Origin: Rugalucina vietnamica | Taxonomy: Eukaryota; Mollusca; Bivalvia; Lucinida; Lucinidae | Length of the DNA: 64,000 nucleotides | Direction of reading: 5' to 3' | NCBI GenBank assembly: GCA_964017185.1 | Contig: OZ024870.1 | Span: 23,459,621 to 23,523,620, forward strand | The notes under the pieces: model-generated | What the model was told of the DNA's origin: nothing | Seen by the model: the letters and a program-made list of their open reading frames with translations, nothing else | Database searches by the model: none | Translations under genes and position numbers: made by a program | Shown here: positions 22,218 to 64,000 of the stretch, one piece after another | How positions within the stretch are numbered: the stretch's first letter is position 1 | How the letters are laid out: every line of letters begins with the position of its first letter

Positions 22218-22998
22218 CAAGGGACATTGATTTAGTACATTACGAAAACTCACCCATGAAAATTGAGCCGCGACGCGAGAAAACCGGTCTTCGGGGTGTC
22301 CGACCAGGTCTGACACAAATCGCTCTGTACAGTCACAGAAGCAGGCTAGAAGCTTGAAATTTCGGATTTAGGAAGAAGAGAAATTGTACTATCCGTGTAG
22401 CGAAAACAAAGGCGCTGATCAGCTTCGCGGTTACCGCGAAGCTGATCTGCGCCTTTGTTTTCGCCTAGGCAAAAATCCGGTTTTCTCACGATGCGGCTCA
22501 AATATACAAAGCATTTTTCAGCTGCAAAAACTGAAAATTTTATTGTTGGAAAAATTTTGATGTTTTTAATATTTTTGCTCAAAACATAGATATCATTGTT
22601 GGTACACTTTAGGAGGGTCTGGTATTCACTCATCACTAAAAATTTAGCCATTTATTCACTGTCATTAAAATTTTGGCTTATTCATTTAAATTAGCTCGAT
22701 TATTCATTAAAATATGATAATATCGTAGTGGACATTGATTTAGTACATTACGAAAACTCACCCATGAAATAATATACAAAGCATTTTTCAGCTGCAAAGA
22801 CTGAAAATTTTATTGTTGGAAAAATTTTGATGTTTTTAATATTTTTGCTCAAAACATAATTTGTTGGTACACTTTAGGAGGGTCTGGATGGGGGTTCTGG
22901 TATTCACTCATCACTAAAAATTTAGCCATTTATTCACTGTCATTAAAATTTTGGCTTATTCATTTAAATTAGCTCGATTATTCATTAAAATATGATAA
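22218..22998 (+). repeat. Direct duplication of about 265 bp, first copy carrying an M MITE
   Basis: GACATTGATTTAGTACATTA onward occurs at about 22223 and 22731. In the first copy the M-type MITE (22265-22500) lies between CCCATGAAAA and ATATACAAAGC. The second copy reads straight through, CCCATGAAATAATATACAAA. Confidence 0.8.
22265..22500. mobile_element. M-type hairpin MITE
   Basis: GAGCCGCGACGCGAGAAAAC to GGTTTTCTCACGATGCGGCTCA, central palindrome GCTTCGCGGTTACCGCGAAG perfect. Confidence 0.88.
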
Positions 22999-24166
22999 TA
23001 ACGCCTTATCACGCCTTCTTCACCCAGCTAATATCTATAAGCAGATAGGTGTTCCCCACCAAAGGCACCCCTTATCTCAAGCCACATTCTATGATATTAA
23101 ATTGTAGACTGCTGAGTGCAACCTTGATATTGACATATTAATTATATACTCTGCTAGCTAGACCACAAAGCCTCATAGAAATAGTATACCGATTTTTTTT
23201 AGAAAATCCCCTTTTAAATCTGTTGAGAGTATAATCCCCTGCACCTTAAATATGCCCTAAGTTTTACCATGAATCTTTCTCTTCAGTTATGAATACCAAA
23301 GGTATGAAAAATTGTAACTTCAGGGGTAAAAGTTATAATAAAATGCTGACTGTTGTTTTTTTAGTAAACTAGTTAGCATAGGAGTACTATGTGATGTATT
23401 GATTTGTGCTTGTGCCTGATTGTACAATACATATAAATAATGTTTAGATACCGAGCGAGCGAAGCGAGCGAGGAAAAATATGTAGCACCATATAAATTGC
23501 CAGATTTTGCATTAACGTTCTTAGTGCTGCCTTGTTTTTGATTGCAAAAGACACTTTCATTATGTTCTGTAATATAAAAAGGCAAGATGATGCCCATCCA
23601 CAGAAAAACGTATCATTATAGGATTGAAAAATACATAATAAGGACAAAGTGGGGTAATAGAATGAAAAGAAAATACATGTACATGTACATATACATAAGC
23701 AAACAAAAGAGTGAAATAGTATCTGGCTCAGTAAACATCCAGAATGATTGAATTTATATTTGTCTCTGCCTTCAAATGACACATTTCTTTTTCAATTGGT
23801 CCTTGAGGTGAGTCCCTACATGCTTGGCTTCCAGACAGATGTCTTTCCAAACATTCAAGGATTTCTGAAATATGAATACAACATTTGAACAAAGTCGGGT
23901 CTGGGGGCGTCCAGACCCCAGAAAAAAATGAAATTCTGGAATGTCAGGGAGGCCATCTAAGGCAATTCCATAACCAAATTTTAGCATATTCATTATTCTT
24001 TAAAATGTTATTATTCACTATTATTATATTACTCTGCTAGTCATTAAAAATTTACATTTATTCATTATTCTTTAGGACCTCATTATTCACTAATCATTAA
24101 TTTTTTTGCTCTTTATTCACTCTCATTAAAAATTTCATTAATCATTATACCCCATCCAGACCCTCC
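22877..24166. mobile_element. Foldback element FB6 (ATTCACT / ATTAAAA words) inserted in an F-type MITE
   Basis: Ends GGAGGGTCTGGATGGGG and CCCCATCCAGACCCTCC. Both arms are built of repeated TTATTCACT and CATTAAAAATTT words. Flanked by TTTA on both sides (22873-22876, 24167-24170). The two halves of an F-type MITE continue outside: GGTACAC on the left, GAACCTAACGAGTACCCACA on the right. No transposase seen within. Confidence 0.78.
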
Positions 24167-24306
24167 TTTAGAACCTAACGAGTACCCACACTCTATGTTT
24201 TGGATCAAAAGTAATAAAAATAGGTATACCCCTGTAAACCCAAGTTTTGCTGTATAAAAGTTGGGTACGAGTGGGTATACTTTTCATGGACATGTTTTCC
24301 TGATAA
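24167..24306. mobile_element. Right half of the F-type MITE split by FB6
   Basis: TTTAGAACCTAACGAGTACC, CATGTTTTCCTGAT end; symmetric arm type. Confidence 0.75.
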
Positions 24307-24555
24307 CTGATATCCATCGGTGTTCCGTTGGAACTCCCCACACGATATATTGAGCCCTTGGTCGAAAATGAAAATTCAACAAAAAAGCAAAGAAACTTAT
24401 GTTAGATCTTTTCTGGCATATATGAAATAAATTATAAATATTCTAGTTGTTAAACTACGCAGAATTACAAAATACTTCATTATTTCAAGGATGCCTATAA
24501 ATAGATCAGGGGAGACTTTTGTAGAATTAATGACTCAATGTCGAAAATCGTTTTT

Positions 24556-29995: not shown

Positions 29996-30735
29996 GACAA
30001 TATAATGAACACGCAGTGATCTGAATTATCCATGACATCCGTGAGCATTGACCACGACTGGAGTGAACCTCGCCATATCACAATCGACTGTTTTGATGAT
30101 TTAGCCATGCATCTTTGACCTTATCGTGACTGTATATGGGTCATACATGTACTTATCAACTTTCAAAACTGGAAAGTGGCTATTTCTTCAAGATAAAACC
30201 CCAAAAAATAATAAAGGTGCTAATCTTTGTCAGGTAAAGTTTACTGCTACTGTATCATGACAATGATCATTACTATCCGTCGTCATACGGGCGGTTGGGG
30301 TTCGTTAGCCTTTGGTCGGCAACCCATCCATGAGTTTGCAAATCACAAACTTTCTAGCTGGGCAGGGGAATTCAATAAGATTTGCACGTCTCCTTATAAA
30401 CCTGAAATGGGTGCATGGGGCTCTACAGCTGTGTTTCATTTACATGCATCATTTCATGCCTATTTCTGTGTCTGCGTGTCTATCTAGCTGTGGTATCGGG
30501 TCGTTTCGGCCGTGAGTCGTTTCGGCCTTGAGTCGTTTCGGCCGTGAGTCGTTTCGGCCTGGGTCGTTTCGGCCTGAGTCGATTCGGCCCTATGTCGTTT
30601 CGGCCAATTTTGGTGAGTCGTTTCGGCCTGATTTTTATTCTATCCTAAAACATAATTTACAGAAGATTTTTATGTTTTACGAGGCTAGTTTACCTTGCAG
30701 TCAGTCTTGCAAGGGTGCTTGGTCTATTACAGGGT

Positions 30736-31023
<288 letters not shown>

Positions 31024-31149
31024 GATAATCATTAAATGCTAATGGGGACTTTTTATGAGACACTAAGAATATGTGAGGCTGGAACTGTGACTACAATTCT
31101 GTCAAAACCCATATTGTATCGTGTATTCACCATTTTTGCACTATTGGCT

Positions 31150-31262
31150 GGTTCCCAGCTTTAAAAAATCAATATTGGAAATACAGGTAACCAGAACCCC
31201 CCTGAGGGGGGTTCCTGGTTACCTGTTTTTCCAGTATTGATTTTTGTCAGCAGGAAACCAGC
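31150..31262. repeat. Hairpin inside FB3
   Basis: AATATTGGAAATACAGGTAACC pairs with GGTTACCTGTTTTTCCAGTATT across CCCCCCTGAGGGGGG (positions 31168-31245). Confidence 0.85.
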
Positions 31263-31980
31263 CGATAATGCAAAAATGGTGATAATATGTCAACAAAGAT
31301 TTCTATGCTCAAGAAGACCCAATTATCTTTGAGTTGATATAACCCTGATGACTCTCCATATGCTTTGGCCGAAACGACCCAGGTCCGAATCGACTCACCC
31401 AGAAAACTGGCCGAAACGACCCACCTACCAAGGCCGAAACGACCCATCCCCTAAATTGGCCGAAACGACCCAGGCCGAAACGACTCAGGCCGAAACAACC
31501 CAGGGCCGAAACGACCCGGATTCCTATCTGTCTGTCTTTCTACCTGTCTGTTTATCTTTCTTTCTTTTTTTCTTTACTTTGCGTAAATGTAATTGTTTTG
31601 TTTTCACTTTTCATTGTTTTGAATGTATAATTCAATGTATGCTATAACCATGTTTTTGAGGGCTCCAAGGAAGATTGGCTATGCTAATTGGGCTTCCCTG
31701 GTAAAATAAAGTATACTCAGAGGAAAAAGTTTAGTCTGTAACTTTGACCAGCTCGATTATTATAATGCCCAGCCGCTTGCCTAAGATGTGCCCCTCTATT
31801 AAATTTGCAAAGTCAATCTTTATCTAATTATGGCAAGAAAGTCTATCACTTCTTAATTTCGACAGAGTTATTGGCCTTTTTCGTAAAACATCATTTTTGT
31901 AATTACCCGATAAATGATCAAATCGGTGCTTTGATTAATAACGCTTTCTGAAATGGGTGGTTACCAGTGACAAAAATCCG

Positions 31981-34215: not shown

Positions 34216-34935
34216 GAGTTAAGCTATGCTTACACAGACCTTGCAACCGCTTTGCGACCTGGCCGCGACTGATTTTGTTGCAACTGATCCGCGACCGCTG
34301 AAACCTATGAAACCAAAATATGCCCATATTTGGAAAAGGATTAGAATCGCCGACCAGTCGGCGACCGGTCGCCGATTAGTCGGCGACCGATCGCCGTAGA
34401 CGTAAGATCTGTTTCCGATTTGACGAAATGATCGGCGACCAGTCGCCGACTAGTCGCCGACCAGTCGGTGTTTACAGTGTACAGGTGTATATACGAATTG
34501 CACAAGCTGCAGGAAGTCTTGGAACGCGCTGTATTATGGTTTACATTTTCAACATGGAGGTACCACATCAAATGCAGTTATTGCGTCTGCAGAGCGGGTT
34601 ACCGAGACTTAATACCCTATCAAGTGCTGCCTGGGAAAAGATGCAGATTTCAAAAAGAGGTGTTTTTCTTTCTTTTGCTCGATATTTTCAGCGATGTTGT
34701 TTGGCGCCTAGGGATCTCCATCGCCGAGCAGCTTATTGAATCTATGAATTCTCGTTTTTGATTCATCATGGTGGTGATCATAATTTATTTGTTTGTCCTT
34801 GATGATTTATTGGTTAGTTATAGAGTCTCCACGAGGACCGATCAACTAACTAAATGTTGTATGAACCACTGCATAAGCAGAGGGTGTGGTTGGGTACCCG
34901 TCAAACCGGTTTAAGTCCCCTGTAATTTTATCACT

Positions 34936-35974
34936 GCTGTCAAACTGTTGTGAGCATACCTAGCTTATACTCCTCCATACGTAGCTCATACTTGGCAACC
35001 CCGATACGCTATGTATACGTCACACATACGTCGTACATACGAAAGCACCGTAGCAGGTACGTAGCAGGTACGCTGTTGATACGTACCTTATACTCCTGAT
35101 ACGTCACACATTCCCTGATTTATATGCCTCGCAACCATGTCGCATGCACGGCATGCCTTTCGTATTCTGTTACGTATGTGTGGCGTTTCATCGAATATCT
35201 ACTGCATATCAGCGACGTACGTATGGCGTGACTCGCGTTTCAACGGCGAATGTTCTACGTACGTTCTACATGTACATACGTTTGCTGTGGATTATGTGTT
35301 TCGTATTTTGTGGCGTTCCAAGAGTATGCCTCTATATATGTAATTGTGTAATTAAAAATAGCTTTGTGTTCGTTTTCCACAGTCGTGGATCAGATGTTTC
35401 TAACGGCCCCGGGTGCCGTGTGGGGCTCTTTCAGGGCTACGTTCACGGTAGCCTCTGTATTTGTTGGAGACGTCTCACGAACACGATGGGGAGGTATTGG
35501 GATTGTTCCCCCCCCCCCCTCCCAATCGATCGCTTAATTTAGTGTTCATCTAGATTATTTTTGGTGGCATCTTCGACCTCTGATTATCAATAACTGTAAT
35601 GCGCGATTTGCACCGACAAAGCGAACACAACCGTTTGTTCACATAGGTTTTAAAACGCAATTGGTACAGAACAGATACGCCGCAGATAAGAATGGAACGT
35701 AGTGGATACGCCGTAGATACGTCACGGGTACGCTTCATACGCCAGACATATATCACACGTACGTAGCAAATACACCTTGATACGCCGTACATACGAAAGT
35801 GAAATTCCATATGAATACAGATGCATCCATCACTGATACGTCACGTAGCCGTAACATAACACTTATGTGGTACATGCGTCGCTTGAACTAATTGTGCCAA
35901 AGATCTCCACGTATCGAAATTCTCATAGATGCAGGAGCGATACGCCACTGATACTGTACGTGAAGGTGTGACAC
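34936..35974. mobile_element. Foldback element FB1 copy (CGTATC / ACGTAC words)
   Basis: Left end GCTGTCAAACTGTTG, right end AAGGTGTGACACATG. Arms are full of TACGTAGC, GATACGCC and CGTATC words. Right part GAACACAACCG matches the FB1 copy at 55.9-56.3 kb. Compared with the empty site at 20.3 kb it is flanked by TTA on both sides. Confidence 0.8.
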
Positions 35975-36522
35975 ATGTTTATATTACTGATCGTTCCAAA
36001 GCGATACTTCTGTTGTGGTTCTAATTATTTTATGTTCTGGTGTTGATTTTTGTGCTGTTTGCAGCTTATGTGCGTTTTCAAATTTTAGTTAAGGTCGGAC
36101 GGTAACTGAGCGGCCGCCTACTGTGAAATAGCTGCTCATTCGGCTTACTATTTCTTAGTATTAGTACCTGATTGTCAATTAAGTTTTTCCCATTTCTGTT
36201 TTTGGAGTGGGAATTTCTTTCTGATTGTTCGTTTCCTGATCATTCCCTGTTTTTACCTTTTCATTTTAAAAATGACGTGACTAGTCGCCGATTGATCGGC
36301 GACCTGTCGCCGACTAGTCGGCGATCAATCGTCGACAAGTCGGCGACCGATCGCCGAATAAATACACACTGTTATAATCGGCGACTGATGGGTGACCTGT
36401 CGCCGACTGGTGGCCGACCAGTTCGCGACCTTTGAAACCTCTTCGCGACTGAAATCAGTCGCGGCCAGTCTTTTCAAAAGACTGTCCGCGATTGACTTTA
36501 GTCGGCGACCGGTCGGCGACTT

Positions 36523-36541
36523 TAAAAAAAAAAAAAAAAAA
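36523..36541 (+). repeat. Poly(A) run inside FB2 right arm
   Basis: About 19 A residues between two GCGAC word clusters. Confidence 0.8.
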
Positions 36542-36634
36542 CCTTGTCGCGACCTTTGCAACCTCTCCGCGACCTCAGCGATTTTTAGTCGCGAAGCGGT
36601 CGCGAGTCAGGGAAATTTTCATTAAAATGTATTT

Positions 36635-37107: not shown

Positions 37108-37386
37108 TCAGGAAAACATGTCCGTGTAATGTATACCCCCTTATACCCCACTTTTATAAAGCAAAACAGGGGTTTGCAGGGGTATTCCTATTTTTCTTAT
37201 TTTTGCTGTAAAACATAGATTGTGGGTACTCGTTAGAACCGCCTCGGCGAGGCGGTTCTAACGTGTACCCACAATCTATGTTTGGGGCAAAAATAAGAAC
37301 AATATCAAAATTTTTTGCACTGAAAATTTTCATTTTTTACAATTTTAAAAATTTCTATATATTGCATGGGCATGTTTTCATAATGA
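37108..37386. mobile_element. F-type MITE, absent from the gene 3 flank
   Basis: CATCAGGAAAACATGTCCGTG to TTGCATGGGCATGTTTTCAT, core GTTAGAACCGCCTCGGCGAG. The matching site near 57158 lacks it (AAAGCAAGAATTATCTG). Confidence 0.88.
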
Positions 37387-39988: not shown

Positions 39989-40200
39989 CTGCAATGTAAA
40001 GTAATATAATTTATGTCGTTTGAGCGCAGTGAATTAGACATAAATTTCCTTTCTCTTGCGGCCGCTTTAAGCAACTTTGGAATAGTGTAGGGACAGCCCG
40101 TTTGATAGCATTGTTCGGTCGTGCGGAAAGGTATTTTGTACACGTATCATTCAAGCTCGAGCCGCTTAGAAGATAACACCTAAATTTTAGACGAACGATT

Positions 40201-41551: not shown

Positions 41552-42441
41552 CACCCTCTGTACCCGTGATACAATCAATTACCTTACGTCGGAGACTGAT
41601 ACAACTAGACGCGGCGCGTGGCGGAAGATGGAGTCAGGTGAGTTGACGATTATTTTAATTTTACAGGCATTTATGCGGGGGATTTTGGGTCAAGAGTTAG
41701 CAGAGAAATAAAGTGTACATACCTCTGTTTGTTTGCCATCAACAGTATTCTAAACAACATCTCCTTGCCAAAAAAAAACAATAGTTTTCTCGGTGGAAAA
41801 TTCCACCATCGTCACGAAAAATGATTGCATTTGCTAATTTCTCCAATCTTTCGTCACCTATTGACATTTTTAACGTTTCAATATAGACCAAAATCATTCT
41901 TTGTTACATACAAGCAGAAAACAATAATGAAGTCAGGCTGGTTTGTTCACAATATGGTGTTGAACACACACAGGGTAGATCGAAGGATACAACTAACCTA
42001 TATGAGTCAATTACCTCGATACAACTCACGTATAAGACTTTTGGATAGAAAATGATGCTCCTTACGTCGGAGAATAGAGCAAAAAAAGATACTACTTACG
42101 TCAAAAAAGACTGTTGTACATTGAAAAGCCCACGGACTAGCGAGCACGAGTGTGTCAGGCAGGGCAAGTTTGCATGTGTTCCTTATATCAACATGTTCCA
42201 AGGGCTCTTAGTGGGGTATACATTTAGTGGGGTATACATTTAGAATACTGTTGATGGCAAACAAACAGAGGTATGTACACTTTATTTCTCTGCCAACTCT
42301 TGACCCAAACTCCCCTGCATAAGTGCCTGTAAAATTAAAATAATCGTCAACTCACCTGACTCCATCTTCCGCCACGCGCCGCGTCTAGTTGTATCAGTCT
42401 CCGACGTAAGGTAATTGATTGTATCACGGGTACAGAGGGTG
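41552..42441. mobile_element. 890-bp non-autonomous DNA transposon with about 200-bp inverted repeats
   Basis: Ends CACCCTCTGTACCCGTG and its complement; arms are near-identical for about 200 bases (41552-41753 and 42240-42441). Flanked by CATAT at 41547-41551 and 42442-42446. Removing one CATAT and the element restores the RT reading ...SAPY-CLTKL..., which proves insertion and fixes both ends. No ORF of note inside. The 5-bp duplication and CAC start recall Transib-like elements, but this is not assigned. Confidence 0.85.
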
Positions 42442-48100: not shown

Positions 48101-48319
48101 ATCATCCTGAACTTAACTTTGGTTGGTATCTGATTGAAGTCGCTCATAATCAGCCAACATCGTCTTCGGTGCTATGTTCGTCATCCTTCCCGTGTACTCC
48201 GGCATTAGATTTTCTCCTACTGTGTAAGTTGGCAACGTCTTTTGTTTGAAGGCTTTGCCTACAAGAATAATTTTAATAACAGTAATAAATTTTAAGATCA
48301 GGAGACATATCCATGAAAA

Positions 48320-48565
48320 GTATAAGCCCAAATCCCTAACTTTACGTTGTAAAACCGGGGCATGCAGGTGTTTACATATTTTTGATACCAAACATAGATT
48401 TTGTTTACTCGTTAGAACAGCCTCGTCGAGGCGGCTCTAACGTGTACCAACAATCTATGTTTTAAGCAAAATTATTCAAAATATCAAACTTTCCTATGAA
48501 ATTTTCAATTTTTACAAATGAAAAAAGAATCACTGTATATTGGATGGGCAAGTTTTCGTAACGAT
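48320..48565. mobile_element. F-type MITE
   Basis: GTTAGAACAGCCTCGTCGAGG core, TTGGATGGGCAAGTTTTCG end; left arm diverged. Confidence 0.7.
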
Positions 48566-49164
48566 AAGGTAATCTTTTGCAAACGGTAATAATTAGTGGT
48601 AGTGGGCAAGTCTGCAGCAAGAGCTAGGCACGATAACTACTTCCGCCGTGTAGTGTTCTTCAACGAGGCACTTGATAAAGCTTCGCATAATACTGATTGA
48701 CACCCGGAAACCGCTGGCGTCGTCCCAAGATGACTGAAACATTGTTGATAGTGGTGTGAAGCCATAGCCAAACCAACCCTGATGTTACCTATTCTCAAAA
48801 ATTGTGAGTGAAGTGTATTTTAGGCCGCACACGAAATTATGACATTCATTTTCTCTGAATTTTTTGTTGTTGCTGCTGCTCTGCTTTTAAAGCGAAATGT
48901 TTTGTTTGTTGTTTTTTTTCTTTAATGAATGCTTATGTCTTTCAACATATTCCAAAAAACTTGAGTAATTGCAGACATACCGGGAATGCGTTCGTTTGTT
49001 TTGAGGTTTAACGCCCCAGTCAACAATTTTGTAGCCGTTTCAAACAAACTATCACCATTTGATTATGGGTCGCCAGCAATATTTCGAAACTTATCTTGTA
49101 GACTAACTTCAAAAGATTAAGAATGAAAAATGAAAATGAGAGAAAGCCACGTTAGCAAAACACT

Positions 49165-49167
<3 letters not shown>

Positions 49168-49229
<62 letters not shown>

Positions 49230-49230
49230 T
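49168..49230 (+). repeat. GA microsatellite
   Basis: About 30 AG units with one T interruption. Confidence 0.95.
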
Positions 49231-49501
49231 CTATCCCACCCCACGAGTGCATATCACGACTTCCAAATGATTGGAAGAAGTCCAATTAAATGGAGGCATC
49301 GTCCCGACATGACCATAGCTATTGAATGTGACGTACTGGATATGTTGTGTGAGAGTGAAAATAGAACTTACTCAATGAAAGTTTCATCTGGGTCCTATTG
49401 TTAGGCATCGACAGTCTCTGTGTCCGATTTTCACTAACAATGCCTAAAACGATAAAATCATTACATGGAATATTACGTGAATGCATTGTTGTTATGCACT
49501 A

Positions 49502-49768
49502 GTCATTTGTAACCAGGGCCCTAACTCTTAACCCCGGTGAATAGCGGGGACCTTGACGTTTGGTCCAGCAAATCCCTGCTAAAAGCCACCCTGTGGGGAC
49601 TGCTCGTTGGTAAAACCACTGCTGTTTTCCCCCGTTGCCTGCTATATTTTCATTTCACCGACCTTTATGCCTATATAAAGCAAACCCTAGATATTTCCCC
49701 CACGCCGCCGTGGCCAAATTTTGGTCAAAGCCCCGTTCATATTCCGGGGGAGCGTGGTTACAAATGAC
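49502..49768. mobile_element. Small inverted-repeat element (GTCATTTGTAACCA ends)
   Basis: Perfect 14-base terminal inverted repeat GTCATTTGTAACCA, 267 bp. Interior rich in CCCCG words. A related element is at 59449. Confidence 0.7.
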
Positions 49769-50736
49769 AAGAGCATTACTGGCTTTGGGCACAGTGTGAT
49801 GATCTGTGATTATCGATAAAAATCTCAAAGTACAGCTCGACACTTGTTATTATTAATGTTTTTTTTTTGTTTTTTTTTTTTTGAGAAGCGAATTCATGTC
49901 TTAAATAGACATACCCCACTGTGAACCTCAATTAAAATTAATGTACATGTACATGATAATAAAATCCTGTTCTTATACCACTTTCAATTGTTACACTGTC
50001 TAAATTTGCATGGTGGACAATGTGCGATTCAATAGATTTATATCCACGTCCATTCATGGGGCATCTTGGCTCTTTAAGCAGGATGCACAAAGCTAAAAGC
50101 ATTCAATATACATGGGTTATTTTTAGTTTTATACATGTTTGATAAACAGAACTGAGACTGAACCCTTACCACATGTCTAGAAGTTTTGAAGACGCCTCGT
50201 CATGGGACCTCGCATAATATTCCTCCTCTTCCCTAAGCTTCTCTTCCATATCCCGTTAAAGAATCACTGACTTCTAAAATTATTGCCTCCACATTGACGA
50301 ACCGCTCATGGACACATGTTGTTTATATTTTAAAGATGACGCGAGACTATTTGAGTGCGCAAGCCTACTACGTTTCCACGCCTCTAGCCACGCCTTTAAC
50401 TTATTTTAATAATTTGTCTTAAGACAAAAAATGTAAATAAAGCAAAATTAAGGTATTTCCCTTAATTTTAGCTCAAATTAAGGCGCGTCAATGAGAATTG
50501 TAATGCCCATGTTTAGGCACCATTTTAGCACGAAACTTATAACCCAAAAAAATATTTTTCACATAAAAAATTGCTTGAAAGTATAATGAGACTTTAAATT
50601 TCTGCTGATAGGTTGGCGAACCTTGAGAATACGTGTATTATGTCGTAAGGATGTGTTTAAAAGATAAGTTATCTCCCTTGTATTATTAGATCAGTGTAAG
50701 GTTATAATATTCTTTCTTTCTTTACTGTTATTTCAG

Positions 50737-51700
50737 AAGTATGCTGATGATATGGCTTTGGCAGGTCAGATGGCTCTGCTTCCTGAATTGCTGGTAGAAT
50801 CTAGATCAAAAAGTACAAGTGCGTCGTACCTTCAGGGATTCAAGAAGTGGAAACAATGGTTTGGGGAGTAGAGACATTTTTCCTGCGAAGGCTCTCCATG
50901 TTGCCATTTATTTGGCGTCGATTATTCAGACAGCAAATTCACCAAGTCCGTTGATTCATGCTTTTTATAGTTTAAAATGGATACATAACATAGGAGGTCA
51001 TGATTCTCCTACTGATTCTTATTTAGTGAAAAATGTGTTAGATGCGGGTAAAAGACGGCTTTCGAAGCCAGTGTGTAAGAAAGAACCTATAACTACAGAA
51101 ATTATAGAGAAAATTTACAAGGATTTATATCAAGTGAATAAAACTTTAAGAACTCTGTGTGCTATATTGGTGGCATATGCTGGGTTTTTAAGAAGTCAAG
51201 AGTTACTGGCAATAAGACGTTGTGACATCAATTTTGAGCAATGCTATATGAGTATCTTCATTGAGAAAAGTAAGACGGACATTTATAGAGATGGCGCATG
51301 GGTTGTTATCGCTAAGACAAATACTAAATTGTGTCCAGTTTTGAATTTGATGAATTTTGTAAATTTATTAGGCATTGAGGATGAGCATTCAGAGCAGTTT
51401 ATTTTTTGCGATCTCAGTGCATGTAGGTCCGGTTATAAAATTAGATCTGACAGAAAAGCTTTAAGTTATTCAACATTAAGAGATTTATTTAGAAAGGCTT
51501 TAACACCCCATGTTCATGACATTTCTAGGTATGGACTTAATTCACTTCGTTCTGGAGGCGCTACGAAGGCAGCCAATATGGGAATTTCAGATAGACTTTT
51601 TAAACGTCATGGACGGTGGAAAAGTGAAAATGCAAAAGATGGATATATAAAAGACGCTTTGGAGAAGAGACTGTCTGTTTCTAGAAGTTTGGGACTATAA
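50737..51700 (+). pseudogene. DIRS tyrosine recombinase
   Basis: The N-terminal part (LPELLVESRSKSTSASYLQG, FKKWKQWF) is in one frame and stops at a G-run near 50868; the rest is open in the next frame to TAA at 51698-51700. Core motifs: GFLRSQELLAIRRCDI (catalytic Arg), LNSLRSGGATKAANMG, KRHGRWKSENAKDGYI (second His and Tyr nucleophile). The first His of the usual HxxR box is Asn here (LNSLR). A TTATTTCAG just before 50737 looks like a splice acceptor, but its use is unknown. Confidence 0.82.
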
Positions 51701-53420: not shown

Positions 53421-53986
53421 TTATAGGGCTGTCACACATTCGCGTATCGACTCACGTATCTACGGCGTATCGAGATACGAAAGGTACGTCACACGTACGT
53501 CGTAGATACGTGGGCATACGTAGCTCATACTCTTCGATACGTAGCTCATACTCCTCATACGCCGATGTGCTACGTTTTTTTATGTGTGCACTTAAAGATT
53601 CGTAGCACGTACGTAGCAGGTGCGATACGCCGTACATACGTGTACGTCACACATACGTGGTACATACGAAAGCAACGTGGCAGGTACGTCGTGGATACGT
53701 AGCTCATACTCCTGATACGCCACACGTACGTAGCGGTTAAAATGCCACGTAACCGTGACGTATGTACAGCGTACCTTTCGTATCTGCTACGTATGTGTGA
53801 CGTATGTGTGGCGTATCCTCGAATGTCTTTTCGTATCTACGGCGTATCAGCGACGTACGTGTGGCGTATCTCGCGTATCAATGGCGTATGTGCTACGTAT
53901 GTGCTACGTTCGTTTCGCTACTGTGGAGTATGTGTGACGTATCAGGAGTATTAGGAATATTTTGTGGCGTTCCAAGAGAATCTTAA

Positions 53987-54381
53987 TAGCTCTGTCACAC
54001 ATTCACGTATCAGCGGCGTATCGCTCACGTATCTATGAAAATGTCGATACGCCGAGGTCTGAGCCGTATTTTGCTCGAGAGACGTATGTACCACGTACGT
54101 GTGACGTTCCTGCTACGATCCCGTGGCGTATCCGTGACGTATCCGTATTCGTATGGAATTTCACTTTCGTATGTACGGCGTATCAATGCGTATGTGCTAC
54201 GTACGTGTGACGTATGTATGGCGTATGAAGTGTACGCGTGACGTATCTACGGCGTATGTACTACGTTCCATTCTTATCTGCGGCGTATCTGTTCTGTACC
54301 AATTGCTTTTTAATACCTATGAGAACAAACTTTGCTCATGCAATTCGCACATTATAGTTATCAAATATGAGCCGCCGCATG

Positions 54382-54412
<31 letters not shown>

Positions 54413-55418
54413 CATAGGCAAAAACAAAGGCGCCGATCAGCTTCGCATTAACTGCGGACCTGATCAGTGCCTTTGTTTTTTTTCTACATGGATAGTACAA
54501 TTCCTCTACTTTCTAAATCCAAAATTTCCAGCCTCTTACCATCCTCTGAGACTGTACAGGCCGGTTTGTGTCAGATCTGGTCGGAACCCAAGGTGTTGCT
54601 TTTCTCACGCACAGGCTCATAAAAGAGGTCGAAGATGCCACCGGAGAAATCTAGATAATCTAGATTAACACCGAAAAACCCGAGGTGGTGGTGGTGGTGG
54701 TGGTGGTGGAACATCTTCAAGCTCTCCATCCTGGTCGTAAGACCACATGAACAAAGACGGAGGCTACACCAAGCGTAGACATGAAAGAACCCTGCACGAC
54801 ACCCCGAACCGTGAGAAACATTTGATCCATGACTTCGGAAAAACGAAAACATACAGAAGCATTAAGATTCTCTTGGAACGCCACAAAATATTCCTAATAC
54901 TCCTAATACGTCACACATACTCCACAGTCGCGAAACGAACGTAGCACATACGTAGTACATACGCCATTGATACGCGAGATACGCCACACGTACGTCGCTG
55001 ATACGCCGTAGATACGAAAAGACATTCGAGGATACTCCACACATACGTCACACATACGTAGCAGATACGAAAGGTACGCTGTACATACGTCACGGTTACG
55101 TGGCATTTTAACCGCTACGTACGTGTTTCGTATCAGGAGTATGAGCTACGTATCTACTACGTACCTGCCACGTTGCTTTCGTATGTACCACGTATGTGTG
55201 ACGTATGTACGGCGTATCGGACCTGCTACGTACGTGCTACGAATTTTTAAGTGCACACATAAAAAAACGTAGCACCTTGGCGTATGAGGAGTATGAGCTA
55301 CGTATCGAAGAGTATGAGCTACGTATGCCCACGTATCTACGACGTACGTGTGACGTACCTTTCGTTTCTCGATACGCCGTAGATACGTGGGTCGATACGC
55401 GAATGTGTGACAGCCCTA
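53987..55418. mobile_element. Inner FB1 copy
   Basis: Flanked by TAA on both sides (53984-53986, 55419-55421). The undisturbed junction seen inside the inner copy itself (GAATCTTAATGCTTC on its own strand, about 54855-54880) shows the single TAA before insertion. Confidence 0.85.
54369..54619. mobile_element. M-type MITE inside the inner FB1 copy
   Basis: GAGCCGCCGCATG then about 28 A, ending CTTTTCTCACGCACAGGCTCA. The matching MITE in the outer copy (55691-55926) lacks the poly(A). Confidence 0.85.
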
Positions 55419-55690
55419 TAATGCTTCTATATGTATGTTTTCGTTTTTCCGAAGTCATGGATCAAATGTTTCTCACGTTTCGGGGTGTCGTGCAGGGTTC
55501 TTTCATGACTACGCTTGGTGTAGCCTCCGTCTTTGTTCGTGGTCTTACGACAAGGATATGTGGTCTTACGACCAGGATGGAGAGCTTGAAGACGTTTCCC
55601 CACCACCACCACCACCACCATCTCGTTTTTTTTTTCGGCGTTAATCTAGATTATCTAGATTTCTCCGGTGGCATCTTTGACCTCTTTTAT

Positions 55691-55926
55691 GAGCCTGTGC
55701 GTGAGAAAACCAACAATTTGGGTTCCGACCAGGTCTGACACAAACCGGCCTGTACAGTCTCAGAAGATGGTAAGAGGCTGGAAATTTTGGATTTAGAAAG
55801 TAGAGGAATTGTACTATCCATGTAGAAAAAACAAAGGCACTGATCAGCTCCGCAGTTAATGCAAAGCTGATCGGCGCCTTTGTTTTTGCCTATGCAGATT
55901 GTTGGTTTTTTCCATGCGGCGGCTCA
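55691..55926. mobile_element. M-type MITE inside the outer FB1 copy
   Basis: GAGCCTGTGCGTGAGAAAAC to TTTTTCCATGCGGCGGCTCA; same insertion site as the one at 54369, opposite strand. Confidence 0.85.
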
Positions 55927-56307
55927 TATTTGATAACTATAATGTGCAAAGTGAACACAACCGTTTGTTCTCATAGGTATTAAAAAGCAATTGGTACATC
56001 TCATATACGCCGCAGATAAGAATGGAACGCAGTACATACGCCGTAGATACGTCACGCGTACAACTTCATACGCCATACATACGTCACACGTACGTAGCAC
56101 ATACGCATTGATACGCCGTACATACGAAAGTGAAATTCCATACGAATACAGATACGTCACGGATACGCCACGGGATCGTAGCAGGAACGTCACACGTACG
56201 TGGTACATACGTCTCTCGAGCAAAATACGGCTCAGACCTCGGCGTATCGACATTTTCATAGATACGTGAGCGATACGCCGCTGATACGTGAATGTGTGAC
56301 AGAGCTA

Positions 56308-56985
56308 TAACGATTGCAAATGTCACAGAAAATGTTGCCCTGGAGTTACTGGCCACGGACTACACAATCGCCAATTGAGATCATGTGAGTTATTGATCAA
56401 TCGGAACGCATTCCCCGACATGTCTAAGACGGCTAGCTTGCTAAATCACAGACTTTTAAGTCTGTAGATTTACAGACATAGGCAGTACAGTTTTTAGTTC
56501 GTTCAGTCTTTCGGAATATATAGAAAAATCGCAATCTATATATCACGCGGTTGCTTGTCCTATACTTAGGCGGACGCCATTGTTTAAAATTCGTTTGAAT
56601 ATGTTTTACGACAAGATGAACATATGAGGTGTGATCAGAAAGTTATAAGCCTCAAGTGCTTGTGATTACCAGGAAATGAAAATCTGGTGATTATTTTTCA
56701 AAATAATCCCCATTCAAGGCAATGCACTTAGTCCATTTCTGTTCGAGCTTGCTTATCCCTTCCAGATAGAAGTCCTTTACCCATTAGTGTCTACTATATT
56801 GGCGAGGTTCACTGGCGACTAGGTATTATAATATGTTTTCGCGATAATCAAGCCGAGTTTTGCTTAAAGATACTCATGTTCTACGCAACGTGTTAATTAA
56901 ATAAAGTTCTTGGTAATGACAGAATTTCTTCCGGTTTTTTTTTATGATCATTCAAGCACTCGGTCACAACAATACTGACCGATTC
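56308..56985. other. Intergenic stretch, only a mariner relic
   Basis: Apart from the 35-bp tandem unit (to 56340) and the mariner fragment (56626-56783) no structure was recognised. Confidence 0.5.
56626..56783 (-). pseudogene. mariner transposase C-terminal relic with one terminal repeat
   Basis: The minus strand reads KDFYLEGISKLEQKWTKCI then ALNGDYFEK and a stop (TAA at 56691-56693), the typical last 30 or so residues of mariner transposases. Beyond the stop, 56626 onward reads GAGGTGTGATCAGAAAGTTA on the plus strand, like a mariner terminal repeat. The rest of the element is missing. Confidence 0.75.
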
Positions 56986-57478: not shown

Positions 57479-57750
57479 CATCAGGAAAACATGTCCATGA
57501 AAAGTATACCCCTTTGAACCCCACTTTTAAATAGCAAAACTGTGGTTTGCTGGGGTATACCTATTTTTTCTTATTTTTGCTCCAAAACATAGATTGTGGG
57601 TACTCGTTAGAACCGCCTCGGCGAGGCGGTTCTAACGTGTACCCACAATCTATGTTTTGAGCAACAAAAATATCAAAACTTTTCTGATAAAATTTTCAAA
57701 TTTTGCTACCGAAAAATATTCTCCATATATTGCATGGACAAGTTTCCAAA
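57479..57750. mobile_element. F-type MITE in the gene 3 flank, absent from the gene 2 flank
   Basis: CATCAGGAAAACATGTCCATG, core GTTAGAACCGCCTCGGCGAG, end TTGCATGGACAAGTTTCC. The gene 2 flank at about 37945 has no insertion. Confidence 0.88.
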
Positions 57751-58429: not shown

Positions 58430-58791
58430 CTAGTAGGAAAAACAGGAAAAAACGTTGAAAACATCAGGAAAACATGTCTGTGCAATATATACCCCCTTAA
58501 ACCCCACTTTTATATAGCAAAACTGGGGTTTGCAGGGGTATACCTATTTTTCTTATTTTTGCTCTAAAACATAGATTGTGGGTACTCGTTAGAACCGCCT
58601 CAGCGAGGCGGTTCTAACGTGTACCCACAATCTATGTTTTGAGAAAAAATAGGAAAAATATCAACATTTTTCTGGTGAAATTTTCAATATTTGGTACTGA
58701 AAAAATTCTCTATATATTGCATGGGCAAGTTTTCGTAATGTATGGGATGAATTCCTTTCACTTCGTGTGATAGTTAAAACTTCGTGTGATA

Positions 58792-59365: not shown

Positions 59366-62321
59366 TAATAATAATGATAATAGTAAACAGTTGTTATGAT
59401 AATTTGATGATAGTTATACACCATACCATTGTTGGCATTTATGCACCAGTCATTTGTATCCCCGTAGGGGGTGGGTCAGCGGGGACACAGCGGGGCTTAA
59501 GTGCCAGGGTTTAACCTCTGATGAGTCCCGGCAGTGTTTGGAATGTGCCGGGGGTTTAATTTCCCGCCAATACAGTCGAATATTAGTTGCATTTTAACAA
59601 TTACATCACTTTTATGGTCTTTATCTTTTTGCAAATGAACCTATTCATTTCCATGTACATGCAGAAATTAATTCAAACCCATATTCCATATTTCAATTTT
59701 ATCATAAAAACCCAGCTGTTGTTCCACTTTATTGTCACCCCCCCGGGATTTGGTGCTTTAAGCAGGGATTTTTAAATACCACAAATCTAACCACGCAGGG
59801 CCGGGCTTTTACCGAGGCTTTAAAAATTGAAAAATTGAAAGCCCCGCTATTCCCCGGTCCTAGGGGAGCCGAGGATACAAATAGCGGGTGCATAGATTGA
59901 ATCTAATGTTCAGCCGAGTTGAGATTGTTTTTTTAAACAAACTTACGAAAACATGCCCCATGCAATATACAGAAATTTTATTGGTTGTACAAAATCTAAA
60001 ACAGCAGTCACACATTAGCGTATAACCCAAACGCGCGCCGGGCGTATGAAAAATCTCAACACGCTGAAGATTTTGGACGTATAAAATTAATTTGTTCCTT
60101 TAACTCGCTTTTGCAGTCACACATTAGCGCGTGACTGAGGCGTGTGCCGGACGTATAAAAAATCTCAAAGTTTTGGAGTACGTTTGTCGTACGTCCCAGA
60201 CACGCTAGGCACGCGCTACAGACGCGCTGTATGCGTTTCATGCGCGCTCCAAGCACGCTTGGCACACGTTACAGGCGCGTTCCACACTCGCCCAAGCCAG
60301 CATCCGGTTAAAATCGAAACGCGCACGTAGCGTATACGACGTGCTTGAAACGTGTGCTCGGCGTGTGCTGGGCGTGTTCGAAACGTATTCAACGCGCCTG
60401 TAACGCGCGTGGAACGTACTTGTAGCGTGTAGGTCACACGCCCGACACACGCCCAACTTCTAGAAAATTTTAAGCATGTTTAAAATTTTATTTAGCCCAA
60501 ACGCGCACGAAATGTGCGCCGACTTTTAGCGACGCGCGCCGGACGTACACCAAGCGTACCCAGCGCGCGCTTAACTTGCCTTGGACGTGTCTCCGACGTG
60601 CGTCTGGCGTATGTGGAAATTTGTATTTTTACAACACGCCCGGCGCGCGTTTCACTTATACGCTAATGTGTGACTCAGGCGAATCACTCACAAACTAAAT
60701 AAAGCCCGAAGGGCTTTATGAAAAAGTTTGTGAGTGATTCGCCTGAGTTTACACATCGATAAAATCAACAAAAATAATAATTCATTCCTTATAATTCCAA
60801 CTTTTTCTCATGCCACTGCATTTGTCTACATCGACTTAAATTTTTATAACCAGCGGAAGGAAAATAGAGCAAAACGGATGTTCATGAGGCAGTCATCTTG
60901 AAAATTTCCAAAGCCTAGATCTCACTTTTCGCAATTAATAGCAGCTACAACGGGCTTGCTATAGACAGGTTGCAAAAGCGGGAGCTTTAGAACATCTCCC
61001 CTTCATTCAAAATAGTTTTGGGAGAAAATATTTCCGTCTGGACCGATAGAAAGACATGTGGATTTTGAACTACTGTCTGAACACCATCTTTCAGAAACTG
61101 CATTTTTCAAAATCTCACTTTTGTGAAACACTACAAGAAAAATATGACTATATCATCTTTTTGCAACCCAAAAGTCGTAAAATGTGCCGCAAAAGTTTTG
61201 AAAATCGGTTCACTAGTAAAATAATTATGCCCAAAAATTATTTTGAATAGGCCTTTCGCATGTGCAAGGGAGGTAATCCATACACCAGATAATTGAAAAT
61301 CAAGCGAATCTGTAGAATAATTTTAAGAGTTTTGTGCTCAGCTATGCATACAATACAATTTTGTTTTGGTTTGGTGAATTTTAAATGAAAAATAATCCAT
61401 TTAGATTTTTTTCCGGGAAAATAGTTACTTCCCTTTCTGACATTTTTACAATGGAAAAAGCCCTATCCAAAATTATTTTCTGGCATAAAATTTTTATTTG
61501 TTATCCGATTTTCAAAATTTTTGTGGCACTTTTTAAGACTTATGGAATGCAAAATGGTGACATGGTCATATTTTTCTTGAGGTCTTTCAGAAAAGTGAGA
61601 TTTTGAAAAATGCAGTTTCTGGAGGATGGTGTTTAGACAGTAGGGCTCGGAACATTTGGAAATTCAAACGTCAAATTTCAACAAACAACTGAAGAAAATT
61701 TAAACACTTACCGTACGATGTTCCGTTAAAAATTCCAGATGTTCATTTAGACGCCTTCTAAACGCGTTCATCCATTGTTTTTATGACGTTTATATTTGGT
61801 GACGTCAACGTTTATACGAAGAAACGTCACGTAATCACGCAACGTCGCGCCGTTTTTAAGGTGAATACTGAGTATTCTTACGCGTTGCTTTTATCGAAGT
61901 ATAAAGTCTTGCAAACAACCAATCAGAATGTAGGAAATTAGCAAAGTTGGAATTATATATATATAAGTGGGGCTATAAGGGGGTATATATTGCACGGAAA
62001 TGTTTCCTAATGTCTTATTCTCGGAGTATGATGTTGTTACCTGGCTCAGTGGTAGTGGGCGGTGGGGGTGGGGCCGTAGTAGGCGATGGAGTTGGGTTAG
62101 GGTCACATTCCTCGACTTGTTTCACCCATTTTTCACATCTTGTTCCTATGCATTTTCCAACTCGTCGACGGTAGCCAGAACCATGGTATTCGTTGCAGGG
62201 GCCCCACGGGCCCCAGGTAGTTTCACACGCCTGAAACTTCGTACACCAGTATCTCTTTGTGACGGTCTGTCCGTGAACTGTCCTTACTTTGGTGCAAATT
62301 CCATGATAAGAGCACACATTT
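58242..62321 (-). CDS. Gene 3: second short paralogue (TSP1-like / TSP1 / chitin-binding-like), 5' exon not seen
   Basis: Exons 62321-62041, 59316-59122 and 58429-58242 (stop TAA). It is a near-identical duplicate of gene 2 together with 3' flanking DNA (36.93-38.18 kb matches 56.99-58.24 kb). The intron between the first two visible exons is 2.7 kb, versus 0.66 kb in gene 2, because of later insertions. No first exon was seen up to 64000. All visible exons are open with good splice borders. Confidence 0.8.
58462..58741. mobile_element. F-type MITE in the gene 3 intron
   Basis: CATCAGGAAAACATGTCTGTG to TTGCATGGGCAAGTTTTCGT, core GTTAGAACCGCCTCAGCGAG. The gene 2 intron has an M-type MITE instead. 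Confidence 0.88.
58797..58836 (+). repeat. Poly(A) tract
   Basis: About 40 A after a duplicated CTTCGTGTGATAGTTAAA. Confidence 0.9.
58963..59030. mobile_element. M-type MITE remnant
   Basis: AGCCGTGTCATGAGAAAA, TTTTCGCCTGTGCACAGCTGAT, ATAGTAAAATT: about a quarter of the element. Confidence 0.55.
59034..59098 (+). repeat. ATT / AAT inverted microsatellite
   Basis: TTATTATTATTAATTAATTA then AATAATAATAA: the two halves can pair. Confidence 0.85.
59122..59316 (-). CDS. Gene 3 exon: thrombospondin type-1 module
   Basis: 195 nt. VDGNWGPWSSWTTSQC, CCGGTQTRTRTRECDN, acidic loop PGEDVDEESDIS, end CNEEECP. The acceptor is directly preceded (minus strand) by an ATT microsatellite (59324-59384). Confidence 0.9.
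59324..59384 (+). repeat. AAT microsatellite next to the gene 3 TSP1 acceptor
   Basis: About 19 AAT-type units; on the minus strand it ends a few bases before TTTCTAG. Confidence 0.92.
59449..59890. mobile_element. Inverted-repeat element with GTCATTTGTATCC ends
   Basis: ATGCACCAGTCATTTGTATCC and GGATACAAATAGCGGGTGCAT inverted, CCCCGC-rich interior. The gene 2 intron lacks it (GGCATTTATGACAAGGATGA). Confidence 0.7.
59944..60002. mobile_element. Left piece of a split F-type MITE
   Basis: CGAAAACATGCCCCATGCAAT to GGTTGTACAAAATCTAAAA, collinear with 39420-39480 in gene 2. The rest is at 61955-62012. Confidence 0.75.
60006..60675. mobile_element. Foldback element FB4 (GCGTGTGCCGGACGTAT words)
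   Basis: Ends AGTCACACATTAGCGTATA and TATACGCTAATGTGTGACT. A second copy of the end at 60113 (GCAGTCACACATTAGCGCG). The whole interior is made of GCGCGC, ACGTAT, GGCGTG words; no ORF beyond word frames. Confidence 0.82.
60673..60748. repeat. Perfect-looking hairpin abutting FB4
   Basis: ACTCAGGCGAATCACTCACAAA and its complement around AAAGCCCGAAGGGCTTT. Confidence 0.85.
60855..61670. mobile_element. Inverted-repeat element with about 190-base subterminal arms
   Basis: AACTGCATTTTTCAAAATCTC at about 61097 pairs with GAGATTTTGAAAAATGCAGTT at about 61600. CAAAATTATTTT and TCGGATAAC-type words also pair. Interior 61260-61455 is unique and AT-rich. Confidence 0.65.
62041..62321 (-). CDS. Gene 3 exon: Cys-rich N-terminal segment, TSP1-like module and Pro/Thr linker
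   Basis: 281 nt, same borders as gene 2. Protein differs at KVRTVHG versus KVKIVHG and is otherwise the same through WGPWGPC and RRRVGKC to the TTTEPG linker end. Such conservation beside heavily rearranged introns suggests recent duplication, conversion or selection. Confidence 0.85.
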
Positions 62322-62879
62322 CTGCAATGTAAAGTATGGCTAAATCGGTTATATACATTTATATACATTGGTCGACATAATTTTAATCAATCAAATAAAC
62401 AAACAAACAAATAGAGCAGGTAAGGGTATTTCCGAACAGCTAAGGCATAATTTCCGTAAAGACCAAAAACAAGACGATTCTAACCTTACATGTACTTTGT
62501 GTCAAATGACAGAAAATCCAATGCCGAACATTTGCGGCATATCGCGGATGGATAAATCATTTTCACCTTTTCCGATCACGTGACATTAAGTTACATGACC
62601 ATCACTGGGTATTTCCGAACGGGCCGGGTCATCCGGACGAATGCGTCGTCTAATTCCGAACAACTATATATTCTTAAAAGATAAACATGAATATGGAATT
62701 ATAATTGAGATGAAACGCTATTTTATGTTGTAACTCAACTATTTTAATGTAAAATACGATAATACCCAGAGATCCGTAACGCGGGTTTATGACAGCAGTC
62801 TTTAGTGTAACGCTTTAAGTATTTAGGAACCCATGATAACCCTGAAAATGCCGTAATTTTATCAGCATTATAACCGTTC

Positions 62880-63175
62880 ACTTATGGCTAGGTCACACTA
62901 GGGCTTACGTACGCTGTGGACGCTGCGGATAGGTGTTCCGTATCTGTCCGTCCTATCCGTAACGATTCGCATCTTATCCGTAATGTCCATAACTGTACGT
63001 ATCGTATCGTCAGGGCGCGGAAGATCCGCGGGCAATTTTTCATAACTGTCAAAAATTCATGCGCGGATGGACGATCGGTAATGGTAGGTAATGGTACGTA
63101 ACTGAAGGCATTTATTCGAATCTGTCCGCATCTAATCGCATCTAAACGTATCATTCCGCGATCAAGCATTTGTTG
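62880..63175. mobile_element. Foldback-like element FB5, one arm (TATCCGTA words)
   Basis: Starts GCTAGGTCACACTAGGGC, then TCCGTATCTGTCCG, CTATCCGTAACG, CTTATCCGTAATG and GTAATGGTACGTAAC words, then TCTGTCCGCATCTAATCGC. The second end is not clear. Confidence 0.55.
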
Positions 63176-63475
63176 TGGATCGATACTGTTCCATACGTGT
63201 TGTTTCGTTCGGTTGCGGTCTTTGTCGTTTACATACTTTTCGATACAATTTAATACACGTAATGTAACGGTTTTCACGTCTGAAAACGGAATCAAACCAG
63301 GATGTAACTTGAACAATGCTAATAAGCGTGTTGCGGAGCCCTCTAGATAAGCCATAACATAATCTGTATTCAATGCTTGAATGAATCATACAAGAATGTT
63401 TCTGGAATATCCAGTCTCCTTGTCATTTTTCTATTATACAGGTAATACAAGTATTAAATTTTGATACACTATTGT

Positions 63476-64000
63476 GTTTCGACTCACGTATCAATGGCGC
63501 ATCAAGATAAGAACGGTACGTCACAAGTACGTCACATACATACGTGAGCATACGTAGCTCATACTCCTCGATACGTGGCTCATACTCTTCATGTGTTGTG
63601 GTGTTACGTTTTTATGTGTGAATTAAAAAATTCTTAGCACGTACGTGACAGGGCCGATACGCCGTGCATACGTCACACGTACGAAAGTAACGTGGCAGGT
63701 ACGTCGTAGATCTATACGTAGCTTATACTCCTGATACGTCACACGCTCGTAGTGGTTAACATGCCACGTAACTGTGGCGTATGTACCGCATGCCTTTCAT
63801 ATCTGCTACGTATGTATGACGTATGTGTGGTGTATCCTAGGCTCTCTTTACGTATCTACGGCGTATCAGCGACTTACGTGTGGCGTATCACGCGTATTAA
63901 CGGCGTATGTGCTACGTATGTGCTACACGTACGTTTTATTGCTGTGGACTATGTGTGGCGTATTAAGATTATTTGGAATATTGTGTGGCGTTCCAAGAGA
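63476..64000. mobile_element. FB1 left arm, cut by window end
   Basis: GTTTCGACTCACGTATC through GTGGCGTTCCAAGAGA, collinear with 53440-53980 of the FB1 element. The sequence ends at the same place where the arm junction follows in the other copies. Confidence 0.82.

Follow-up and report, generated by a model that had tools for sequence, protein, structure and literature searches.

Word arrays at helical spacing in apparent foldback elements of the bivalve Rugalucina vietnamica: probable non-autonomous members of a PIF/Harbinger lineage

Introduction

A stretch of 64,000 nt from Rugalucina vietnamica (GCA_964017185.1, contig OZ024870.1, positions 23,459,621 to 23,523,620, forward strand), which we call the window, carries several structures that look like foldback elements and whose arms are composed of short repeated words, with a different word in each structure. 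An earlier note listed six of them (FB1 to FB6) and attributed them to one transposition system with shared ends and differing, fast-changing words. This raises the question of whether such structures are foldbacks at all, which of them belong together and what might read the words.

Results

Nested copies account for the long inverted arms of FB1

The near-perfect long arms of FB1 result from a 1.43-kb copy (53,987-55,418) inserted in reverse within another copy that spans 53,424-56,307, and FB1 was rejected as a foldback with long inverted arms on this ground. The outer copy, on the forward strand, consists of the left arm AL with CGTATC/ACGTAC words plus the TAA target preceding the inner copy (53424..53986) and of the interior C' with the right arm BL' (55419..56307). 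AL starts with the end sequence TAGGGCTGTCACACATTCGCG after a TTA flank (53421-53423), whereas TAA follows on the right (56308-56310). The inner copy, on the reverse strand in the order BL-C-AL' (53987..55418), has TAA on both sides, and the empty site can be read in the inner copy itself. The long inverted arms ascribed to FB1 in the earlier note are thus an effect of nested insertion, while single copies have two different arms. Of 20 fetched FB1 loci, 18 contain the complete AL-C'-BL' unit, with arms that are not identical; L025 is without AL, and in L013 the first 58 bases of AL are missing. AL and BL' do not repeat each other over their whole length and show only partial matches of 66-82%. 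An older forward-strand copy in the order AL-C'-BL' lies within FB2 (34932..35979; ends read by eye) with TAT on both sides. The example warns that foldback elements can be imitated by nested copies.

The interior C' holds the start-codon region of a transposase gene and, reversed, that of a MADF gene, and little else of either gene is retained. Since the start-codon regions of both genes have been kept, FB1 looks like an internal-deletion derivative of a coding element.

An end frame at a fixed distance from TWA

The related start motif previously claimed for FB1, FB4 and FB5 corresponds to a common frame, in which a TWA flank is followed by 7 bp and GTCACAC. The end motif TCACACATTMGCG has 12 matches with up to two mismatches compared to 2.2 expected. 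In the window, TWA-N7-GTCACAC occurs at six places, each of which is an end of FB1, FB4 or FB5. Genome-wide, this arrangement is in excess (11,901 versus 7,612 reversed controls), whereas a spacing of 6 bp is at control level (6,911 versus 6,953) and one of 8 bp is near it (6,413 versus 6,091). Both the fixed 7-bp distance and the helical spacing described below had escaped the earlier note.

FB4 (60000..60675, forward strand, ACGCGC/GCGTGT words) is an element of ~683 bp with short inverted ends only, so that long inverted arms are not found here either. Its left end in the window reads TAA (59997-59999), AACAGCA and then GTCACACATTAGCG, and its right end is shorter than the end of the genomic copies, GTGTGACTGCTGTT. 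The left half of FB5 (62885..64000, forward strand, ATCCGTA/AGATACG-type words) begins with TTA (62882-62884), TGGCTAG and GTCACAC; the other half lies beyond the window, where the element reaches L056:3301 and is followed by TTA. It includes AL-type FB1 sequence without its end (63479..64000, forward strand) that also runs beyond the window.

For FB2 (34222..36621, forward strand, TCGCCGA/GGCGACC word; right boundary from the window copy alone) the claimed motif was recovered as a variant at the left end only, where TTA (34219-34221) and AGCTATG precede CTTACAC in place of GTCACAC; at the right end TTA (36622-36624) follows and the motif is absent. Homology to the loci L060 and L061 begins at 34219, and a first look gave 105 FB2 candidates in the genome. 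FB1 sequence is contained in the interior of FB2 and likewise in 5/5 other fetched FB2 loci, among which L061 has an FB1 portion of only ~130 bp; the FB2 loci L057-L059 have common flanks and hence are not independent.

The flanking triplets are identical on both sides in 9/18 FB1 pairs, obtained from 20 loci (L013 and L025 gave none) that were ranked with a query containing the TAA flank, so that these counts are biased on that side. The same proportion (9/18) was found for FB4, with 18 pairs from 20 places (none at L046 or for the window copy) and a query containing no TWA flank. TTA versus TAA accounts for five of the nine mismatches in FB1 and likewise in FB4. Single places with TTA/TTA are the C1 element (see below), FB2 and FB5. 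At L039 and L045, where the FB4 flanks agree, the neighbouring DNA is another FB4 copy, and several FB4 mismatches can alternatively be read as an element end shifted by one base.

Word arrays and their helical spacing

The claim of word arrays was borne out for the arms of FB1, FB2 and FB3. At both k=6 and k=8, the leading family words of these arms are more frequent than the average over 100 dinucleotide shuffles, although the top 6-mer count of FB3_R (7) is below the shuffle maximum (9). For FB4 the claim stands at k=6 only, the top 8-mer (4) not passing the shuffle maximum (6), and no k-mer enrichment over dinucleotide shuffles was found in the left half of FB5. The very top 6- and 8-mers of FB2_R are poly-A.

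The words are degenerate and occur in both orientations, with a helical spacing held over ~60 bp. Most top words include CpG, and outside CpG they vary between families. The CpG observed/expected ratio amounts to 1.6-2.1 in FB1, FB2, FB4, FB5 and FB8 (a family outside the window), compared to 0.97 for the window. Among 20 arms, of which L085, L086 and L089 represent one family, CpG recurs at 9.5-11 bp in 15, with at most 3/200 shuffles reaching the observed power; AL of FB1 is an example (ratio 1.96, period 10.5, 0/200). The other five are FB1_BL (40/200), FB2_L (period 11, 16/200), L092 (199/200), L094 (200/200) and L087 (0/200, but best period 13.75). Shuffle counts per 200 differ slightly between two runs (FB2_L, 7 and 16; FB2_R, 0 and 1; FB5_L, 4 and 1). 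Over lengths of 265-570 bp, most tested arms contain ~30-64 CpGs, spaced at helical pitch.

FB3, FB6 and FB7 lie outside the system

The proposed single system appears tenable for FB1, FB2, FB4 and FB5 and has to be given up for FB3 and FB6, in which the shared ends are absent. FB3 (30498..31520, strand undefined), with GTCGTTTCGGCC word arms flanking a (TCTA)n stretch, has no frame end in the window scan, and its CpG period is non-significant (162/200 shuffles). FB6 (22600..24170, strand undefined), where AT-rich ATTCACT/ATTAAAA words are mixed with a palindromic repeat family, is not CpG-rich, likewise has no frame end in that scan and contains too few CpG for the period test. An extra foldback absent from the earlier list, FB7 (41552..42440, strand undefined), sits in a reverse-transcriptase-like frame, has the 5-bp duplication CATAT and was rejected as a member.

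Coding relatives of the PIF/Harbinger type

A transposase gene bounded by such ends, which the earlier note had proposed to look for, is present in the C1 element (C1:56,185,619-56,191,588), read end to end over 5,970 bp. It has TTA/TTA flanks, short inverted ends and arms of the same kind as the FB arms, both with a CpG period of 10.5. Its transposase belongs to DDE_Tnp_4 (E=1.3e-25, 90.3 bits versus a cut-off of 24.8), and a second gene of the Myb/SANT type matches MADF_DNA_bdg (E=2.5e-8, 34.6 bits versus a cut-off of 22).

FB1 membership of this lineage holds well, its own arm being found beside a transposase exon: an arm of FB1 aligns with L088 over 539 bases at 88.7% identity, and in L088 it adjoins transposase exon 1. 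This relative (L088/L096) comprises exon 1 only, 50% identical to the C1 element transposase, and by reading a gene start similar to that of the MADF gene is present in L096 and FB1. Among the first 100 longer FB1 end pairs listed, none falls by its coordinates at the listed PF13359 places. Upstream of relatives of the C1 transposase, 9/12 fetched flanks start with the frame end or a variant (L084-L089, L091, L092, L095) and an FB2-like end lies in L094, while L090 and L093 have no array within the fetched DNA. FB2 matches coding-relative DNA partially (71% over 136) and FB8 matches L087 piecewise; no coding element bearing the ends of FB4 or of FB5 was found. FB2 appears to be a member mainly by its left end, together with TTA on both sides, and FB4 and FB5 appear to be so by frame, TWA flanks and phased CpG array only.

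The arrays are not a feature of every Harbinger in the genome: 20 flanks of other PF13359 loci have at most 22 CpG/400 bp and a power below 18, versus 35 and 40 CpG/400 bp and a power of 35 and 56 in the C1 element arms, each flank covering 2.3 kb, so that arrays farther out would escape notice. L078 (35%) and L083 (43%), which are among these 20, likewise have no array within the fetched DNA.

Discussion

We propose that FB1, FB2, FB4 and FB5 are probably non-autonomous members of a PIF/Harbinger lineage and that their words may serve as binding sites for the element's own protein. The arrays are likely bound by the Myb/MADF protein: the words would be multiplied sites for it or, alternatively, for the N-terminus of the transposase. 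Lying on one face of the helix, they could align a protein array along the arm, which would recruit the transposase to the shared end frame and hold both ends together. The word would differ by family if each array has changed along with the protein that binds it. At least one of six apparently odd foldbacks is tied to a coding lineage, within a transposon group that combines a constant end frame with long, helically phased arrays differing among relatives. How PIF/Harbinger families recognize their own non-coding derivatives becomes directly testable, and natural pairs of MADF protein and DNA word are on offer.

Harbinger ends might also be combined with arrays that are neutral satellites, shaped by slippage and gene conversion and owing their period to an ancestral unit of 10-11 bp. 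A slowly diverging tandem repeat of that size could produce the period without any protein reader, five of 20 arms did not show it by the measure above, and tandem repeats that vary in number are known from the subterminal regions of the Harbinger MtPH-A6-4 (PMC2213677). We nevertheless consider this unlikely, as arrays of unrelated words in both orientations take the same position across families, the helical spacing is kept despite word degeneracy and the coding relatives have arrays as well. A host factor, i.e., a CpG- or methylation-sensitive DNA-binding protein reading the words for silencing or escape, would agree with the CpG in most top words and the CpG-rich arms compared to the window; yet words that vary beyond CpG would be superfluous for a single host reader, and the words of FB1 and FB8 travel with a coding relative, which makes this very unlikely. 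The inverted arms visible in the window, and the view that arm repeats of Galileo add transposase sites (Tetris paper, PMC4079207), could be taken to indicate genuine foldbacks like FB, Galileo or TU, in which long inverted arms are the functional feature. Given the non-identical arms of single FB1 copies, the short inverted ends of FB4 and coding relatives that are Harbingers, such a system is extremely improbable.

The proposed lineage resembles Harbinger3_DR and rice Ping/mPing in its DDE_Tnp_4 transposase with a second Myb/MADF gene, its apparent TWA target and its many non-coding derivatives, but differs from both in that most arms tested carry ~30-64 CpGs at helical pitch and a family-specific word. 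The sea-urchin foldback element TU has internally repetitive terminal regions, and Galileo/P-element foldbacks make an 8-bp target duplication; the latter class was rejected in view of 3-bp TWA-type flanks and a coding relative with DDE_Tnp_4 rather than a P-type transposase. In En/Spm, numerous short motifs that bind protein lie close to either end, and En/Spm and hAT belong to other transposase superfamilies with other target duplications. Both share subterminal motif arrays with the elements described here, and for hAT such arrays are also described in PMC6188088. Internally repetitive terminal regions are likewise reported for Drosophila FB, Galileo and Tetris (PMC4079207); these and TU differ in being defined by long inverted arms and in being without the coding relatives found here. 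In zebrafish, a Myb-like protein of Harbinger3_DR recognizes a 9-bp subterminal motif (PMC9710019). In MtPH-A6-4 of Medicago, tandem repeats lie subterminally at one end or at both, oppositely oriented, with a 60-bp unit containing a triplicated 12-bp motif, but this is a single subfamily of one plant with a longer unit, and its description, as far as available, presents no set of families with a common frame and differing words (PMC2213677). In IS1535 of the IS607 family, short helically phased motifs near the end nucleate a transposase filament; being a bacterial system with a serine transposase and four motifs, it offers an analogy of mechanism, not kinship (PMC6188088). KolobokP, with long terminal direct repeats (PMC9587614), was rejected, since AL and BL' of FB1 match only partially (66-82%) and the C1 element ends are short and inverted.

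It is possible, and suggested here tentatively, that the arrays act as an address code in which each family has a fast-evolving MADF protein of its own that recognizes the phased words of that family. With many Harbinger families having nearly the same cleavage ends, each family would need an array of its own. If so, the machinery of each family would be kept from moving other families, and the code would change while the frame stays, yielding mutually insulated systems with natural protein-word pairs. Regarding the pace of change, the description of the words as fast-changing can be retained only in that transposase relatives of 46-54% identity differ in their words, whereas those of a relative at 80% are similar.

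End frame and target flanks

The common end motif claimed in the earlier note stands for the foldback families FB1, FB4 and FB5, which carry GTCACAC, and for the left end of FB2 with the variant CTTACAC, but not for the right end of FB2, where TTA follows and the motif is absent. From the flank inward, FB1 ends read TWA, TAGGGCT or TAGCTCT, then GTCACAC; the FB4 end TWA, AACAGCA, GTCACAC; the FB5 end TTA, TGGCTAG, GTCACAC, with TTA again past the far end in locus L056; and the left FB2 end TTA, AGCTATG, CTTACAC. The same frame (AGCCCCT, then ATCTCAC) bounds FB8, a CGCGCGAC word array (L056:900-2500) lying inside FB5 just past the window. In the source assembly (1.09 Gb, 47 contigs; window at C2:23,459,621-23,523,620), the frame with a 7-bp spacer occurs 11,901 times versus 7,612 reversed controls, compared with 6,911 versus 6,953 for 6 bp and 6,413 versus 6,091 for 8 bp; the large excess belongs specifically to the 7-bp spacing. 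Among the first 100 places listed, more spacer classes repeat in this frame (TTA/CGTCCGC/GTCACAC, AGGCCTT-like), and these may be further families of the system.

The TWA flanks agree with the TWA target described for mPing (PMC4561436). The 3-base flanks nevertheless differ between sides in 9 of 18 FB1 pairs, a count biased by the search query, and in 9 of 18 FB4 pairs (L009-L028, L037-L055), five of the nine mismatches in each family being TTA versus TAA. A TWA-target model leaves these mismatches, which affect half of the pairs in either family despite the close similarity of the scored copies, unexplained.

Family copies and the nested FB1

Reading the window confirmed that the word arrays of the families are real. 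The long FB1 arms described earlier are also present there, but they are produced by the nesting of two copies and not by the design of a single one. The order is AL-BL-C-AL'-C'-BL' (AL, left arm; C, interior; BL, right arm), with an inner copy (53,987-55,418) reversed within an outer copy (53,424-56,307). The uninterrupted target GAGAATCTTAATGCTTCT is readable in the inner copy itself, and its TAA is repeated at both nesting junctions. The single unit AL-C'-BL', 1.1-2.4 kb long, was found in 18 of the 20 fetched FB1 loci, the exceptions being L025, without AL, and L013, whose AL is short of its first 58 bases. The exact FB1 end pattern has 742 genomic occurrences, and its reversed control none.

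For FB4, 3,610 first-look candidates were obtained, and the 40 scored are the one in the window plus 39 further copies at 97-98%; for FB2, 40 of 105 candidates were scored, mostly at 75-95%. Three near-identical FB2 copies (L057, L058, L059) lie beside a tRNA-like stretch recognized by eye; because their left flank is common too, FB2 travels there inside a larger repeat. A further word array, GGTCCGAATT / AATTCGGACC, lies at L057:1300-1850 within an FB2 copy, in a style nearer FB3 than the Harbinger arrays.

Coding relatives

A genome search with PF13359 yielded 415 candidates, with 150 scored places listed; one of these, situated 3.6 kb from an FB4 copy, was read through as a 5,970-bp element (C1 56,185,619-56,191,588). 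It supplies the transposase gene bounded by such ends that the earlier note had proposed to look for: flanked by TTA on both sides, it has ends of TGCTGCG then TTTCCAC, arms phased at a period of 10.5 on both sides, and genes for a DDE_Tnp_4 transposase and, reversed, a protein with a MADF domain. Its transposase has 11 full-length copies at 99-100%, a few partial copies, one relative at 80%, one at 78% and many from 54% down. Nearly 40 matches cover a stretch the size of exon 1, starting between residues 32 and 42 and stopping short of residue 170; several have the same single stop and a few are first exons of genes with a listed second exon, a pattern that points to bursts of derivatives of medium size in which exon 1 is kept.

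Upstream flanks were taken for 12 relatives, and nine start with the frame end or a variant: L084 (the 80% relative; TTTACAC), L085, L086 and L089 (word AACGCC), L087 (ATCTCAC, with the word CGCGCGA as in FB8, whose coding relative it is), L088 (FB1 words), L091 (AAACGTA), L092 (frame end after TCA) and L095 (AACGGAC). The end at L094 is FB2-like but contains five additional bases, and the flanks fetched for L090 and L093 have no such end. In twenty contrast flanks taken at other PF13359 loci, CpG density peaked at 22 per 400 bp and the periodicity power stayed below 18; as two of these loci, L078 (35%) and L083 (43%), are also relatives of the C1 transposase, the array feature marks only part of the wider lineage. 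No coding partner of FB4 or FB5 was found among the loci read.

FB1 looks like an internal-deletion derivative of a coding element, judging from the sequence it retains. Its AL matches the L088 arm at 88.7% over 539, and behind that arm L088 has transposase exon 1, the start of a reversed MADF-type gene and a BL-like array. The FB1 interior keeps the start regions of both the transposase (CCGAAGTCATGGA against CCAAAGTCATGGA) and the MADF gene (MPPEKSR against MPPKKSR).

Helical spacing of the word arrays

The recurring distances between CpGs are 11, 20-22, 31-33, 42, 53 and 64 bp in both FB1_AL and FB4; those of FB2 are multiples of 11, and those of FB5 lie close to multiples of 10. Fifteen of 20 arms had a best period of 9.5-11 and a power that no more than 3 of 200 dinucleotide shuffles attained: among the families FB1_AL, FB2_R, FB4, FB5_L, FB5_R and FB8 and, on the coding side, the C1 element in both its arms, L084, L085, L086, L088, L089, L091 and L095, where L085, L086 and L089 represent one family. 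The other five were FB1_BL (40/200 shuffles), FB2_L (period 11, but 16/200), L087 (0/200, yet a best period of 13.75), L092 (199/200) and L094 (200/200). The same kind of test gave no significant CpG period in FB3.

A 9-bp subterminal motif of Harbinger3_DR is recognized by a Myb-like protein (PMC9710019), mPing requires both proteins (PMC2836001), and helically phased motifs serve a transposase filament in IS1535 (PMC6188088). By analogy, the array words probably represent many sites of the Harbinger3_DR kind, and their phasing would place bound proteins along one face of the arm, much as in the IS1535 filament. Harbinger elements with subterminal repeats have already been published (PMC2213677). 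In the titles and abstract openings searched, with most subscription papers and bioRxiv outside their coverage, nothing described CpG words that are helically phased, differ from family to family and stand behind a shared Harbinger end.

Window neighbors

Thrombospondin-type frames were seen by eye within the window; together with its repeats, they give it a molluscan look. The region 40191-51700, with reverse transcriptase, RNase H and tyrosine-recombinase-like frames, is presumably a DIRS/Ngaro-like retroelement, a call made by eye; it is split by a foldback at 41552-42440 with ends CACCCTCTG and a 5-bp duplication, CATAT. A (TCTA)n tract of ~72 units, 99% perfect, sits between two FB3 arms (30735-31021), and a very common palindromic repeat, ACATAGATTGTGGGTACTCGTTAGAACCGCCTCGGCGAGG..., occurs window-wide, e.g., at 37200-37290, 57583-57660 and 58566-58641.
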